Source of the DNA: Chitinophagaceae bacterium | GTDB lineage: Bacteria > Bacteroidota > Bacteroidia > Chitinophagales > Chitinophagaceae | Direction: 5' to 3' | Assembly: GCA_004028795.1 (NCBI GenBank) | Contig: SAIW01000010.1 | Location: 124,001-188,000, forward strand | Length of the DNA: 64,000 nucleotides | In this document: piece after piece, positions 3,181-18,657 of the stretch | How positions within the stretch are numbered: the first letter of the stretch is position 1 | Layout: the number at the start of each line of letters is the position of its first letter | Position numbers and translations under genes: made by a program | Notes under the pieces: model-generated | Seen by the model: the letters and a program-made list of their open reading frames with translations, nothing else | Databases searched by the model: none | What the model was told of the DNA's origin: nothing

Positions 3181-3263
3181 ACAATAGTTTAAGAAACAAG
3201 ATTAACAAATTTCTTGGCAGAAATAAAAAAAGACAATCATAAGTTGATTATCTTCAGAAAAAG

Positions 3264-3632
3264 TGGAGCTGAGCGGAATCGAACCGCTGTCCAAACATCG
3301 CTACCATAAGTTTTCTACATGCTTATTCCATTATTATTTGTCGGCATTAAACAGGAAATGAACAAACCGATTTAAAGCTTAGCTGAATTATCTTAATCCC
3401 GATTCACAGCCTTATCAGGAAGCATCTTGTTTTGTTTTGAGTCGGCGGCGGAACCTGGTAACAAGCTAACCTGTTCGGCGGCCCGAATGACTGGTTAATC
3501 ACTGATTAAGCAGCCATGGCATACTGTGTATTGCCATTTATAGTTTGAATATTCAGATTAAAGTGCTAATTATCCAACGCACTGCATGCTTATACCTACC
3601 GTAACCTATGCTGTCAAAACCAATACAGCCCC
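3264..3632 (-). ncRNA. ssrA: Transfer-messenger RNA (tmRNA)
   Basis: On the minus strand the 5' end GGGGCTGTATTGG (from 3632) and the 3' end (to 3264) form the tRNA-like acceptor stem: GGGGCTG pairs with CAGCTCC, followed by discriminator A. The T-arm GGTTCGATTCC is present at the 3' end. Within the RNA, positions 3535-3506 encode the tag GNTQYAMAA followed by TAA, resembling the Bacteroidota tags that start with Gly and end AA. The 3' CCA is not encoded, as the next bases are CTT, and must be added. tmRNA rescues stalled ribosomes together with SmpB and marks the product for proteolysis. Confidence 0.95.
3506..3535 (-). other. tmRNA proteolysis-tag reading frame
   Basis: The resume codon is most likely GGC at 3535-3533, and the frame reads GNTQYAMAA then TAA. 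The choice of Gly as the first residue follows the pattern of Bacteroides and Porphyromonas tags. The upstream in-frame codons (INGNTQ) leave a small doubt about one extra Asn. Confidence 0.8.
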
Positions 3633-3688
3633 ATAATTATTTACAATGTAATGATGTACGATTTAAGATTTATAAAAAATCAATAATC

Positions 3689-3766
3689 TTTTGTACCAAG
3701 TTGCAAAGCTACTATTAAACTTCCGTTGCGTCGCACTCTTGTACGTTCATATCGCTACTCAACTTT
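3689..3766. repeat. Intergenic palindromic repeat, copy A
   Basis: This roughly 78-base stretch matches copy B at 16228-16305 at about four of five positions, including the identical blocks TTTTGTACCAAG, ACTATTAAACTT and CGTCGCACTCTTGTAC. The ends GTACCAAG and CTTGTAC can pair with one bulged C. The inner stem is weaker here than in copy B. It covers the rseP stop codon (3761-3759) and the region just upstream of ssrA. No reading frame is preserved between the copies. Confidence 0.75.
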
Positions 3767-5117
3767 TATGAAACAGTCTAAAGAAATCCAAGCCTAATGC
3801 ATAAGCCATTAATCCTAATAATAAAACCATACCAACAGTTTGAGCATATTCCATAAACTTATCACTTGGTTTTCTGCCTGTAACCATCTCAACAATGGTA
3901 AACAATGCATGTCCGCCATCCAATGCCGGAATTGGCAATACATTCATAAAAGCTAATATGATAGAAAAAATAGCAGTTAAAGTCCAGAAACTTTGCCAAT
4001 CCCATACACCCGGAAACACACTTCCTATGCTGATTACGCTACCTAAACTTTCGTTAGGATTTGCCTTACCTGAAAATAATTGCTTAATACCTGTTAAGTA
4101 ATTCTGTAAAGTAACAAAGCATCTTGACAATCCTTTTGGTACAGATTGAGCAAACGTATAAGTAACTGTATCTATTTTAAACCCGAGTTTGCTGTAATTG
4201 GCAACAGGTGCAAAACCTATTCTCCCTTCATCAGTTGTTTTAATAGGCAATACCAACGTATCTGCATTTCTAACAATTTTTATTTGAACTGTTTTATTTT
4301 TATACTTTTTAATTTCCTGCATTACTAAATGATGAAATTGTGTAGGCTGATTATTAACAGCAATAATTTGATCGCCCTTTTTTAAACCTGCGGTATAAGC
4401 AGGAAGTTTTTTGTCAACAGTATCAACAATACAAGGGAATCTCAATTCAGCAAAACCTAACCCCTTTTCTTTATTTAGTTGACGTATTAAAGTTTCGGGT
4501 AATTGTAAAACAGAATCTTTTCCATCTCTTAAAATGGTAATAGTTTTTGCTTCAGATAAGATTATTTTTTTGGTTACAGAGCTTTCATCTTTCACAACAC
4601 TTGTATCAACTTTTAAAATGATATCCCCATCTTTCAAACCAACACTTTTACCTATAGAATCTACTGCCAAGCCATATTTTGTTTCTAAAGGTTTTAAATT
4701 TTCATCACCCCAAACCCATGTTATGCCAATAAAAATTATAATTGCCAATAATACATTCACCGTAACACCCCCTAACATAATTATTAAACGTTGCCAAGGT
4801 TTTTTTGCTCTGAATTCATAAGGTTGCGGAGGTAATTTCAATTGCTCTTTATCCATACTTTCATCAATCATACCGCTAATTTTCACATAACCGCCAAACG
4901 GTATCCAGCCAAGCCCCCATTCAGTTTCACCTATTTTCTTTTTAGCCAGGCTAAACCCGGGGTTAAAGAATAAATAAAATTTTTCTACTCTGCATTTAAA
5001 CCATTTAGCCGGTAAAAAATGTCCAAGCTCATGCAGTACTACTAATATGGAAAACGATAAAACAAACTGTGCAGCTTTAATACCTACTGTTGCCCAATTA
5101 ATTGCTAATAAAGTCAT
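3759..5117 (-). CDS. rseP: RIP metalloprotease RseP (site-2 protease)
   Basis: This 452-residue integral membrane zinc protease cuts transmembrane segments, typically of anti-sigma factors, after a first site-1 cleavage. Zinc ligands are in H29-E-L-G-H33 within the first membrane helix and in the late motif N392-VLPIPALDGGH403, where Asp400 is the third ligand. Two PDZ-like segments lie between them (about 125-215 and 220-300, containing GLKKGDQIIAVNNQPT). The length is normal for the family. It follows dxr with an 86-base gap, and the dxr-rseP order is common in Bacteroidota. A long inverted repeat occupies that gap and ends one base before the start codon. Confidence 0.95.
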   Translation of the reverse strand: MTLLAINWATVGIKAAQFVLSFSILVVLHELGHFLPAKWFKCRVEKFYLFFNPGFSLAKKKIGETEWGLGWIPFGGYVKISGMIDESMDKEQLKLPPQPYEFRAKKPWQRLIIMLGGVTVNVLLAIIIFIGITWVWGDENLKPLETKYGLAVDSIGKSVGLKDGDIILKVDTSVVKDESSVTKKIILSEAKTITILRDGKDSVLQLPETLIRQLNKEKGLGFAELRFPCIVDTVDKKLPAYTAGLKKGDQIIAVNNQPTQFHHLVMQEIKKYKNKTVQIKIVRNADTLVLPIKTTDEGRIGFAPVANYSKLGFKIDTVTYTFAQSVPKGLSRCFVTLQNYLTGIKQLFSGKANPNESLGSVISIGSVFPGVWDWQSFWTLTAIFSIILAFMNVLPIPALDGGHALFTIVEMVTGRKPSDKFMEYAQTVGMVLLLGLMAYALGLDFFRLFHKS

Positions 5118-5203: not shown

Positions 5204-6361
5204 TTACATTTGAATTATAGAGGCGGCAAAATTACGTGCCTCTCCATCGCTTTCAAAGTAATCTTTCAATGTTGGCTTTTCTATAAATGGAATTTTTGCC
5301 ATTGTTCTTTCAATCAACTCCGTCATATCTAAAAAACCAATTCTGTTTCTTAAAAAAGCAAATACTGCAATTTCATTAGCAGCATTCATAACACAAGGTA
5401 AATTGCCTCCTTTGTGCAGTGCATCAATGGCTAAGCTTAAATTACGGAAAGTCTTAAAATCGGGTTCTTCAAAAGATAAAGTGTTAGGCTTTTTAAAATC
5501 GTAACGTTTAAAATCATTTGGCAAGCGTTGCGGAAAAGCCATTGCATATTGAATAGGCAATTTCATATCGGGCAAACCCATTTGAGCCTTCATGCTGCCA
5601 TCTTCAAACTGAACCATACTATGAATAATACTTTGCGGATGAATAACCACCTGCACCTGCTCGGCTTGGAGATTGAATAACCATTTGGCTTCAATCATTT
5701 CCAAACCTTTATTCATTAATGTAGAAGAATCAATAGAAATTTTAGCACCCATACTCCAGTTCGGGTGTTGCAATGCATGGTCTCTTTTTACATTCACTAA
5801 AAAATTAGGCTTTCTTCCTAAAAACGGACCGCCGCTTGCAGTAAGAATGATTTTTTCAATTTTATTTCTTCCTTCACCAACCAAACATTGAAATATTGCT
5901 GAGTGCTCGCTATCAACCGGAATTACAGGAACTCTTTTTTCCAATGCTTTTTTCATTACAATATCACCTGCAACCACCAATGTTTCTTTATTTGCCAAGG
6001 CAATTGCTTTGCCGTTATCAATTGCTTTTAAAGTTGGTTTTAAACCTGCATAACCAACGATGGCAGCAAGCATCATATCATAATAATCTGCAGCCGCAGC
6101 TTCTTCCAATGCAGCTTCTCCACTTGCAACACCAATAGTTGTATTAACTAATGCTTCTTTAATTGTGTGATATTTTTTTTCATCACCAATTACAACCAAT
6201 TTAGGATTGAATTGCAATGCTTGTTTAATCAATAACTCGGCGTTATTTTGTGCTGTTAATACAGCAACAGAAAATTTATCGGCATTCGCAGCAATAACAT
6301 CTAATGCCTGCGTACCGATAGAGCCTGTAGAGCCAAATATTGCAATGCGTTTTGTTTGCAT
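5204..6361 (-). CDS. dxr: 1-deoxy-D-xylulose-5-phosphate reductoisomerase
   Basis: This 385-residue protein catalyses the NADPH-dependent conversion of DXP to 2-C-methyl-D-erythritol 4-phosphate, the committed step of the non-mevalonate isoprenoid pathway in the cytosol. The NADPH-binding loop GSTGSIG is at residues 10-16. ANKETLV, the metal-binding VDSEHSAIFQ, the ASGGPF loop and ISIDSSTLMNKGLEMIEA are all intact. Length and domain order are normal. It is the upstream gene of the dxr-rseP pair. Confidence 0.97.
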   Translation of the reverse strand: MQTKRIAIFGSTGSIGTQALDVIAANADKFSVAVLTAQNNAELLIKQALQFNPKLVVIGDEKKYHTIKEALVNTTIGVASGEAALEEAAAADYYDMMLAAIVGYAGLKPTLKAIDNGKAIALANKETLVVAGDIVMKKALEKRVPVIPVDSEHSAIFQCLVGEGRNKIEKIILTASGGPFLGRKPNFLVNVKRDHALQHPNWSMGAKISIDSSTLMNKGLEMIEAKWLFNLQAEQVQVVIHPQSIIHSMVQFEDGSMKAQMGLPDMKLPIQYAMAFPQRLPNDFKRYDFKKPNTLSFEEPDFKTFRNLSLAIDALHKGGNLPCVMNAANEIAVFAFLRNRIGFLDMTELIERTMAKIPFIEKPTLKDYFESDGEARNFAASIIQM

Positions 6362-16218: not shown

Positions 16219-16227
16219 CCTTTATTT

Positions 16228-16305
16228 TTTGTACCAAGCTGCATAACCACTATTAAACTTTAGTGGCGTCGCACTCTTGTACATATTGTTCGTTACTCAA
16301 CTATT
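16228..16305. repeat. Intergenic palindromic repeat, copy B
   Basis: This is the second copy of the element at 3689-3766, in the same orientation relative to the + strand. GTACCAAG (16231-16238) and CTTGTAC (16276-16282) form an outer stem with one bulge. Inside it CCACTA and TAGTGG pair perfectly around an 8-base loop. The copy sits between the small Cys protein and the TonB receptor. It is too short for a transposase gene, so a REP- or MITE-like element or a shared structured RNA/regulatory element is possible. Confidence 0.75.
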
Positions 16306-16359
16306 TACATGCAGTTTAAGTTCATAAAACTTAAACAAGCGTACATCCAACTTCAACTA

Positions 16360-18657
16360 ATGAAAAAAATATTTTCTTTCATGTTGCTCTGTATGATATT
16401 ACACAGTGCAAAAGCCCAACAGGCTAAAACCCTTACAGGTAAAGTATTTGATGCTGTAAGCAAAGAACCCATAGAAGGTGCTGTTATTACAGACAGCAAA
16501 AACAAAAAAGCAATAACAGATATTAACGGAAAATTTACTATTACAACACAAGCAACACAATTAACCATTAGCTCCATAGGTTTTACAGATAAAATAATAG
16601 CAATAAAAGAAAACTTTTTAGCTATTTCATTACAGCCAGCCAACAAGCAATTACAACAGGTGGTGGTTTCTGCCAACAGAACAGCAGAAAAAAGAAGTGA
16701 GGCACCTGTGGCTATATCAGTTATTAATAAACAAACCATTGAAGAAACCAAAGCACAACGTTTAGATGCATTGCTTAATAAAACAAGCGGTGTGTTCATG
16801 GTAAACTTAGGCAATGAACAACATGAAATGAGCATTCGCCAACCTATGACAACCAGCAGCCGTTTCCTGTACATGGAAGATGGCATACCCTTAAGAACAA
16901 CCGGTGTATATAACCATAATGCTTTATTGGAAATGAATTTACCTGCTGCTAAAAGCATTGAAATTATTAAAGGACCATCATCAGCTCTTTACGGCGGAGA
17001 GGCCATTGGCGGTGCTGTAAACGTTATAACGCAAGCTGCACCTGCATTTACAAGTGGCAGCATCAGCACACAACTAAACAATACAGGTTATAAAAGAGCT
17101 GATGCACAATTAGGTACTTCGCTTGGCAAATTGGGCATTATTGCAAGTGGTTATATTGCTGATAAAAAAGATGGACCTATTGAACACAGCGATTTCAGAA
17201 AATCAGCTTTCACACTCAGGGCAGATTATAAATTTACTAATCACTTAAGCTGGAGTAACAGTGTTACTTACTTAGACTATTACAGTGACATGACCGGTGC
17301 TTTAGACAGTATCAAATTTGCTCAGAGAAATTTCAGCTCTTTACAAACTTTTACTTACAGAACTGTTTATGCATTGCGTTATAAATCAATACTAACACAA
17401 CAATGGAATAATAATAGTGCAACAAGTATTTCTTTATTATACCGTGATAATTCAGTTATTCAAAATCCATCTTATTCTATTGCAAGCACTGCAAGCCCTA
17501 CTGTTTACAAAGGCCAAATAAATGATAATGCTTTTAATACTTATGCATTATTTATTCAGCATACACAAAAGTTTAATTGGCTGAACAGTAAGTTGATTGC
17601 AGGTGCCAGTGTAGACTACAGTCCACAAACATATTATGCTAAATTCATCTGGATTAATAAAGACCTTTCATCAGGTAAATATGTAAGCTATATTTCGCCA
17701 ACACCGGATTCTTTATTAAGTAATTACAAAACAAACATCAGCAATACCGCTGCTTTTGCAGACTTTGAATTCAGTCCTGTAAAGGGTTTACGCATTGTTA
17801 CAGCTTTACGCTATGATGCTTTTAAGTATAATTTTCAAAACAGCCTAACACCATCAGCTTCGTCGGGTGCACCTTCATCTGTTACCACTTTTAACAGGGT
17901 TACGCCAAAAATCGGTTTCACTTATAACAAAAAAGGAATCGGCTTTTATGGTAATTACAGTGAAGGTTACGTACCACCGCAAATAACAGAACTATTCAAC
18001 AGTGTAAAAGTTCCTTATTTACAACCGCAAACATTTTTTAATTATGAAATCGACGGATGGTTATCGCTTATAAATAATAAACTATATGCAGACTGGAGTT
18101 TGTATTTAATGAACGGTACCAATGAAATTATTTCTGTAAAACAATCTGATGGCAGTACGGTAAACCAAAATGCAGGTAAAACACAACACTATGGCATTGA
18201 GTATGGCTTAACCTATAAACCAACAGAAGAATGGGCTATTCATGTTAGTGCAACCAATGCTAAACATACTTATATAGACAACTTAGTAAAAGGTGTTGAT
18301 TATAGCGGAAAGGAAATAAGCGGTGCCCCACGCTTTTTTTCTAATGCAGAAGTAAGCTTCAAACCCAAGGCAGTAAAGGGTTTACGCTTAGCTGCAGAAT
18401 GGCAACACCAAAGCAAATATTTTATGGACGATTTGAATAACTATACCTACAATGGTTTTAATGTGGTAAACTTCAGGGTTGGTTATCAACTAAAAAGTAT
18501 TGAATTATGGGTAAATGTATTAAATGCTTTTAATGAATACTATGCTGTATTGGCAACCAAATCTGCCACAAGCAGCGGCAACAGTTCTTACTCTTACAAT
18601 ATGGGCGACCCAAGAGAAATAACTTTTGGTATTGCTTACAGGTTTGGAAAGAAATAA
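16360..18657 (+). CDS. TonB-dependent outer-membrane receptor (siderophore/metal type)
   Basis: The protein has about 765 residues from the ATG at 16360, which begins a good signal peptide (MKKIFSFMLL...AKAQ). An ATG at 16309 would add 17 residues before it and is less likely. After the signal comes a carboxypeptidase-regulatory-like domain (LTGKVFDAVSKEPIEGAVI), then a TonB plug (RSEAPVAISVINKQTIEE ... EIIKGPSSALYGGEAIGGAVNVIT) and a 22-strand-type barrel ending in YRFGKK. It imports a chelated metal or similar ligand using TonB energy. The downstream PepSY protein points to iron or copper chelates rather than sugars. It has no SusD partner. Confidence 0.9.
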   Translation: MKKIFSFMLLCMILHSAKAQQAKTLTGKVFDAVSKEPIEGAVITDSKNKKAITDINGKFTITTQATQLTISSIGFTDKIIAIKENFLAISLQPANKQLQQVVVSANRTAEKRSEAPVAISVINKQTIEETKAQRLDALLNKTSGVFMVNLGNEQHEMSIRQPMTTSSRFLYMEDGIPLRTTGVYNHNALLEMNLPAAKSIEIIKGPSSALYGGEAIGGAVNVITQAAPAFTSGSISTQLNNTGYKRADAQLGTSLGKLGIIASGYIADKKDGPIEHSDFRKSAFTLRADYKFTNHLSWSNSVTYLDYYSDMTGALDSIKFAQRNFSSLQTFTYRTVYALRYKSILTQQWNNNSATSISLLYRDNSVIQNPSYSIASTASPTVYKGQINDNAFNTYALFIQHTQKFNWLNSKLIAGASVDYSPQTYYAKFIWINKDLSSGKYVSYISPTPDSLLSNYKTNISNTAAFADFEFSPVKGLRIVTALRYDAFKYNFQNSLTPSASSGAPSSVTTFNRVTPKIGFTYNKKGIGFYGNYSEGYVPPQITELFNSVKVPYLQPQTFFNYEIDGWLSLINNKLYADWSLYLMNGTNEIISVKQSDGSTVNQNAGKTQHYGIEYGLTYKPTEEWAIHVSATNAKHTYIDNLVKGVDYSGKEISGAPRFFSNAEVSFKPKAVKGLRLAAEWQHQSKYFMDDLNNYTYNGFNVVNFRVGYQLKSIELWVNVLNAFNEYYAVLATKSATSSGNSSYSYNMGDPREITFGIAYRFGKK

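Follow-up and report, generated by a model that had tools for sequence, protein, structure and literature searches.

Many dispersed repeats of bacterial genomes, the REPs, are explained by hairpins and Y1 transposases. REPs and REPINs are abundant extragenic sequences that include the most abundant 16- to 20-mers and are mobilized by RAYT (Y1) transposases (PMC3116915; PMC3733652). A class of CGTC-tagged REPs, which occurs also in the Bacteroidetes, apparently has no dedicated transposase; in these repeats an 8-9-bp stem with a loop of 4-5 bases carries an unpaired CGTC at one end (PMC3733652).

The family of dispersed repeats that we describe here in the Chitinophagaceae shares with REPs and REPINs a high copy number, short extragenic units, inverted close pairs and a position often near the 3' ends of genes, but its unit is about 80 bases long as against the 20-40 bases of a REP (PMC3116915; PMC3733652). 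It differs from them further in that the unit has no palindrome or hairpin, that Y1 was not found in six genomes holding copies, and that the one borderline Y1 ORF of the genome under study has no core in its vicinity. The family is REP-like in abundance, place and pairing, and it is not a REP by the defining features tested, namely a palindrome and a RAYT. Like the CGTC-tagged REPs, it contains CGTC, is intergenic, is dominated by head-to-head pairs and has no known transposase; its CGTC, however, lies inside the core with no consensus stem, whereas that of a CGTC-REP lies beside a stem (PMC3733652). MITEs and the enterobacterial RU elements are likewise short, intergenic, present in many copies and devoid of a gene of their own, but in contrast to these elements the Chitinophagaceae unit has no terminal inverted repeats, and no clear target duplication was seen at two empty sites (PMC2759123). 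What is new here is the conservation of the core above the arms at orthologous places, together with a switch between two core types. Without hairpin or Y1, the family nonetheless attains a density of about one copy per 5 kb in one genome and retains a 20-base core from genus to genus, and it points to a putative enzyme or DNA-binding system.

The window, that is, the whole stretch of 64,000 nucleotides analyzed, comprises positions 124,001-188,000 of contig SAIW01000010.1 of Chitinophagaceae bacterium GCA_004028795.1, whose genome (the source genome, G000) amounts to 3.43 Mb in 26 contigs. A preliminary description had reported in it two matching stretches in the same orientation, one overlapping the rseP stop just upstream of ssrA and the other preceding a TonB receptor gene, and all of this holds (table 1). 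The two copies, A and B, are 81% identical over 72 bases and have an exact 17-mer in common (3728-3744 and 16266-16282), for which 100 shuffles gave a mean of 0 matches at up to 3 mismatches. A leave-out profile, built from 98 other copies of the source genome with both window copies excluded, finds exactly these two places, at 3689-3763 (E 6.8e-15) and 16225-16302 (E 7.6e-14); no further match in the window reached E<=1, and the reversed window and reversed contig gave none. Copy A has its T-rich end towards ssrA and the rseP stop codon inside its right arm, and the true start of the TonB receptor gene probably lies downstream of the position listed.

Table 1. Positions, in window coordinates, of the two repeat copies and their neighboring genes
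Feature	Position	Strand	Basis and remarks
Copy A, ~80-base dispersed element	3686..3765	+	Leave-out profile match and family boundaries -42..+37; in the rseP-ssrA spacer
Copy A, 20-base core, type 1 (GTTGCGTCGCACTCTTGTAC)	3725..3744	+	Shared 17-mer; family profile
Copy B of the element	16224..16303	+	Leave-out profile match; flanked by a 122-aa ORF and the TonB receptor gene
Copy B, 20-base core, type 1	16263..16282	+	First three bases GTG, not GTT
rseP (site-2 protease)	3759..5117	-	ORF; Peptidase_M50 E 1.1e-52 and PDZ
ssrA (tmRNA)	3261..3632	-	RF00023, 134.8 bits; ARAGORN 3263-3632
TonB-dependent receptor gene	16309..18657	+	PF00593 E 2.7e-34 and PF07715; longest reading

Copy A has an ortholog at the same place in the congener G002 and is absent from G001 and G003; therefore, it is probably ancestral in the genus and was lost in those two. 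When the left arm of the G002 copy was compared with the 102 copies of the source genome, copy A was the best match (34/42 bases; mean 20.8) and copy B the second (31), and copies A and B look closely related to each other. On the minus strand copy A contains TAGCTTTG at 3704-3711, upstream of ssrA; the corresponding letters of the G002 copy are TAAATTTG. The former fits TAnnTTTG, the form of the -7 promoter element in Bacteroidota. We rejected a promoter role of TAGCTTTG for the family, as it sits in the loose arm, outside the consensus. We likewise rejected the element as an inversion breakpoint: there is a rearrangement between G000 and G001 near copy B, but the breakpoints examined lie on terminator-like sequence and about 500 bases from the copy.

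The window stretches are members of a large dispersed repeat family that is restricted to the Chitinophagaceae and patchy within it. The preliminary description had suggested a repeat family, and there are many further copies: at up to 2 mismatches the 17-mer core gives 162 matches in the source genome (reversed control, 0), a second core type, TTGTGTCACTCACTTGTAC, gives 28 at up to 1 mismatch, and a BLAST search with a 72-mer gives 41. In a set of 59 genomes, the type-1 18-mer is present in 18 (the source genome included), all of the same family, with counts from 0 to 361, and in none of the 23 genomes from other families of the order; the type 2 core occurs in 16 of the 59. Among 395 sampled genomes of the phylum, an exact 19-mer was found in 7 of 14 genomes of the family, the source genome included, and in 0 of the 381 others, an exact pattern being one that would miss diverged relatives outside the family. 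The maximum of this sample is genome G180, apparently a Limnovirga strain, with 1,166 exact copies in 5.5 Mb. A scan of named genomes yielded at least 120 stretches with the core; the 80 titles listed are either Chitinophagaceae (Segetibacter, Foetidibacter, Limnovirga, Hydrotalea, Niabella, Paracnuella, Pinibacter, Flavisolibacter and others) or metagenome-assembled genomes titled Chitinophagales, Sphingobacteriales, Bacteroidetes or Bacteroidota. Searches of the literature by core sequence and topic found, among the matches listed and by title or start of abstract, no paper describing the family.

The boundaries of the unit were drawn from the information content over 540 distinct copies, fetched with the core pattern at up to 1 mismatch. 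Around GTTGCGTCGCAC(A/T)CTTGTAC, and counted from the start of the core, the unit extends from about -42, where information content rises, to about +37, where it falls. The core, from -3 to +16, is strongly conserved, in copies that were themselves chosen by the core pattern. The left arm opens with a T-rich end, continues loosely as GTAMCCRGC and closes with TTNAGC ahead of the core, and the right arm often has GTTC followed by TCARCAA. Some positions are two-state, A/T at +9, C/T at -5 and G/C at -3. The core comes in two discrete types: with a search pattern that admitted every mixture of the three linked bases by which the types differ, it starts with GCGTCGCAC in 457 of the 540 copies and with GTGTCACTC in 68, leaving 15 with neither.

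The unit shows no consensus fold. The preliminary description had called the repeat palindromic and possibly structured, on the strength of a pair of outer arms, one of them CTTGTAC, and an inner CCACTA/TAGTGG; those letters do exist in copy B, but they are no feature of the family. Inner arms pair in 32 of 102 copies; combining each 3' arm with the 5' arm of a different copy gives a mean of 29.4. For the outer arms the figures are 8 of 102 and 9.65. RNAalifold finds no consensus pair on either strand in the copies of the source genome (102) or of G180 (55). Relative to dinucleotide shuffles the fold z-scores average 0.03 and -0.37, and relative to shuffles of single bases they average -0.18 to -0.81. 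End-to-end comparison of the copies found no terminal inverted repeats, one end, set against the reverse-complemented other end, being identical at 6.78/15 positions, when dealt ends give 6.74 and DNA outside the element 6.58. Over threshold, Rfam reports only the tmRNA in the window, and a permissive search of both spacers returned only the end of the tmRNA and a chance-level snoRNA match outside copy B. We reject a hairpin or RNA element on the absence of a consensus fold, arm pairing equal to that of dealt arms and the lack of an Rfam match. The label of a REP- or MITE-like family survives in part, since the repeat is abundant, mostly intergenic and dispersed, but a palindrome, inverted ends and a link to TnpA-REP are not supported. 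Another candidate, short C-terminal peptides encoded on the reverse strand, which by eye is open through the core, was discarded because the changes of core type alter amino acids.

The copies lie mostly between genes, as delimited by a simple ORF caller of our own: 11 of 102 copies in the source genome overlap an ORF call, and in G180, where a stretch of 200 kb was scanned, 9 of 59 cores lie inside one. Genes often end at the element. With a plus-strand gene on the left, the stop falls 37-45 bases ahead of the core, at the T-rich end, in 18 of 37 cases; with a minus-strand gene on the right, it falls no more than 36 bases from the core in 23 of 46. Close pairs of copies (less than 400 bases apart) are 31 times head-to-head, once tail-to-tail and never in the same direction (binomial P = 1.5e-8), in a scan of the fetched loci in which pairs of identical sequence were counted once and to which the source genome contributed only 2 pairs; among neighbors less than 300 bases apart in the 200 kb of G180, 8 are head-to-head and 2 tail-to-tail. 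Within pairs, therefore, the T-rich ends face the genes. One head-to-head pair (L255:5504-5828) encloses a tRNA-Leu(CAG) gene at 5642-5728.

The abutting stops would suit an RNA that acts at gene ends, as a transcription terminator or a 3' element of mRNA stability, as would the raw counts in the 200 kb of G180, where 13 copies lie in 5,087 bp of convergent spacer and 5 in 5,233 bp of divergent spacer. We nevertheless consider such an RNA quite improbable. Beyond the missing fold on either strand and the missing Rfam match, 17 of the 90 copies of the source genome with both neighbors lie between divergent genes (63 lie between tandem and 10 between convergent genes), and orientation relative to tandem genes shows little preference, with 27 plus and 36 minus in the source genome and 136 and 146 among single copies. 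One locus of G001 and G003 already has a terminator-like hairpin, recognized by eye, before the element.

The local GC skew in the orientation of the element is negative at 65 of 102 places in G000, 33 of 46 in G001, 41 of 63 in G003, 24 of 34 in G007 and 144 of 248 named-genome loci, and shows no negative bias in G180 (29/55). Because no two-arc pattern of orientation along the replichores was found in the one-contig genome G007 (71 places; permutation P = 0.49), this skew is possibly an effect of gene strand.

A search for a mobilizing enzyme turned up no general candidate. Following the idea of the preliminary description that a TnpA-REP gene might accompany the repeat, we looked for Y1_Tnp and did not find it at E<=0.001 in the copy-holding genomes G001, G002, G003, G015 (72% complete), G025 and G027. 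The source genome has one borderline Y1_Tnp ORF (22.3-23.2 bits; cut-off 23), and GCGTCGCA at up to 1 mismatch was not found in the 3.2-kb locus of this ORF. Because Y1_Tnp was not found in these six genomes, RAYT/IS200 is rejected as the mover. A reverse transcriptase (retron or DGR) fails for the family as a whole on similar grounds: RVT_1 is present in the source genome, G001, G002 and G007, among others, and was not found at E<=0.001 in the six copy-holding genomes G003, G013, G019, G027, G028 and G030. Nor does a transposase-like or cargo family recur beside the copies among the 30 most widespread gene clusters, which by eye are housekeeping genes and related phage genes.

Comparison of orthologous places reveals both persistence and turnover. 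Of the 46 copies in G001, 37 have both flanks on one fetched G003 locus; the core there agrees at 13 or more of 17 bases in 33 of them and at 16 or more in 26. Conversely, 39 of 63 G003 copies have both flanks on a G001 locus, and 31 of them keep at least 13 core bases. Between more distant congeners turnover is high: of the G000 copies whose orthologous place falls in unselected stretches, G001 lacks or has decayed all 8 of 8, and in G003 the same holds for 7 of 11, with the other four kept; 12 of these 15 absences were aligned. Empty sites were identified in G003 opposite the G000 copies L026 and L041; at these two sites, the only ones compared for a target duplication, there is a possible 3-base TAA at L026 and none was seen at L041. 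Decayed copies exist as well. Opposite the G003 copy at C7:49276 (L422), the copy in G001 C11 (L339) has decayed through clustered substitutions, which by eye are mostly C to T, across core and right arm, and its upstream flank is almost identical to that of G003; another decayed copy lies in G003 opposite L085.

At the 21 loci with type 1 in both orthologs, 347 of 357 core bases are identical compared with 1063 of 1260 arm bases (Fisher P = 7e-13), a contrast that is partly selected because the loci were mostly fetched by core pattern, which favors conserved cores. A safer figure is how many cores are well kept, differing at no more than one base in 17. These are 26 of 46, as against 10.6 expected at the 15.6% arm divergence of the type-1 pairs (P = 1e-6) and 6.3 at the 19.1% arm divergence of all 37 loci (P = 1e-11). 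These expectations bear on whether the copies could be relics, an inactive and decaying repeat whose conservation is only apparent, produced by fetching loci with the core pattern. Most loci do come from such searches, decayed copies exist as just described, and if neutral, intergenic divergence were only 11%, 19.7 well-kept cores would be expected, so that the excess would be barely above chance (P = 0.04). At the divergence of the arms themselves the excess is large, and in G010 a single core variant, the form with CTCCCTTGTAC, makes up 16 of the 18 listed places (it occurs once each in G002, G016 and G018), so that we think relics very unlikely. The core form at these 16 places of G010 reads TTGTGTCACTCCCTTGTAC, and the type-1 18-mer was not found in G010 at up to 1 mismatch.

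The core also switches between types. Of the 37 orthologous loci of G001 and G003, 10 pair a type-2 core in G001 with a type-1 core in G003, none shows the reverse, and one further locus is mixed; at the remaining loci both genomes have type 1 (21) or both have type 2 (5). The left arms at the 10 switched loci are identical at 292 of 390 bases, far above the 0.40-0.48 of random pairs though below the 698 of 819 at unswitched type-1 loci, so that the switched loci hold the same copies and chiefly the core has changed. Two loci, L064 and L065, have type 1 in G000 as well as G003 and type 2 in G001, although the G000 set was mostly fetched with type 1 and is biased accordingly; they suggest that the change to type 2 happened in G001, its direction being only partly polarized. 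The switch looks like a block-wise templated replacement or very strong joint selection, and it makes the choice between templated conversion and selection for recognition directly testable in culturable species.

We therefore incline, with little more than even confidence, to the hypothesis that the family is a REP-like, nonautonomous dispersed repeat of the Chitinophagaceae whose core is read by a putative trans-acting factor that copies the unit, a mechanism that we infer. The factor would be a DNA-binding enzyme, neither a Y1/RAYT protein nor a reverse transcriptase, whose recognition of the core would let it copy the unit into the spaces between genes. This recognition would also keep old copies canonical, by conversion from other copies or by selection for recognition, and either process would make the core change as a linked block. 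In favor of a REP-like repeat we count the copy number, the sharp boundaries, the distribution within the family, the empty sites, the constraint on the core, the switch, the head-to-head pairs and the dominance of one core variant in G010. Against a mobile element we count the many old copies (33 of 46 in G001 are common to G003, and copy A is common to G002), the lack of a mover enzyme in our searches and of a clear target duplication at the two empty sites, and the conservation of the core at old places, which also fits a function for the host. A bolder version of the copying hypothesis, in which this would be a new kind of bacterial dispersed DNA, with an unstructured 80-base unit lacking inverted ends, two core types that replace each other blockwise at fixed chromosomal places through sequence templating, and an enzyme of no known transposase class, spread in Chitinophagaceae and their phages, seems to us possible but rather doubtful.

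The main rival to a core-recognizing copying factor is a host function, with the copies being useful binding sites for a chromosomal protein (a nucleoid protein, a global regulator or a replication or repair protein) and the two types being alternative forms of a single operator or the sites of two paralogs. Conservation of the core above the arms at orthologous places is what such sites would show, the two-state positions at +9, -5 and -3 look like base contacts, and one copy keeps its place in G000, G001, G003 and MAG381 between genes that we take, by eye, to be rpsB and tsf; the copies kept at one place in six related predicted phage contigs point the same way. Binding sites of general use to the host would, however, hardly vary from 0 to 1,166 copies within one family or be absent or decayed as often as the G000 copies are in G001 and G003, and they are at odds with the use of both orientations and all gene arrangements and with the absence of a replichore pattern in G007. 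In addition, the three linked bases switch jointly, with few mixed forms. On balance we judge a host function unlikely, and the copying factor remains the reading that we prefer.

The phage contigs belong to the 21 stretches with the core in IMG/VR. In six related predicted ones (L132, L133, L134, L138, L145 and L148) the element stands at a fixed place upstream of a small uncharacterized gene, which reads as 95 aa in four contigs and 84 aa in two, and a NinB-like gene lies 201 bases away in four of the six. Phages may thus carry the element; the 78-base consensus had no match in the named phage and plasmid collections.

Finally, five copies of the source genome (L024:1537, L066:5833, L030:1517, L053:1480 and L093:1098) contain short palindromes, of the TCCAAAGGACTCCTTTGGA type or the CCTGCC..GGCAGG type, within the core region. 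Five of the eight such palindromes found in the loci of this genome, which are enriched for the element, lie in element cores, and it seems that a separate, truly palindromic repeat inserts into the element.
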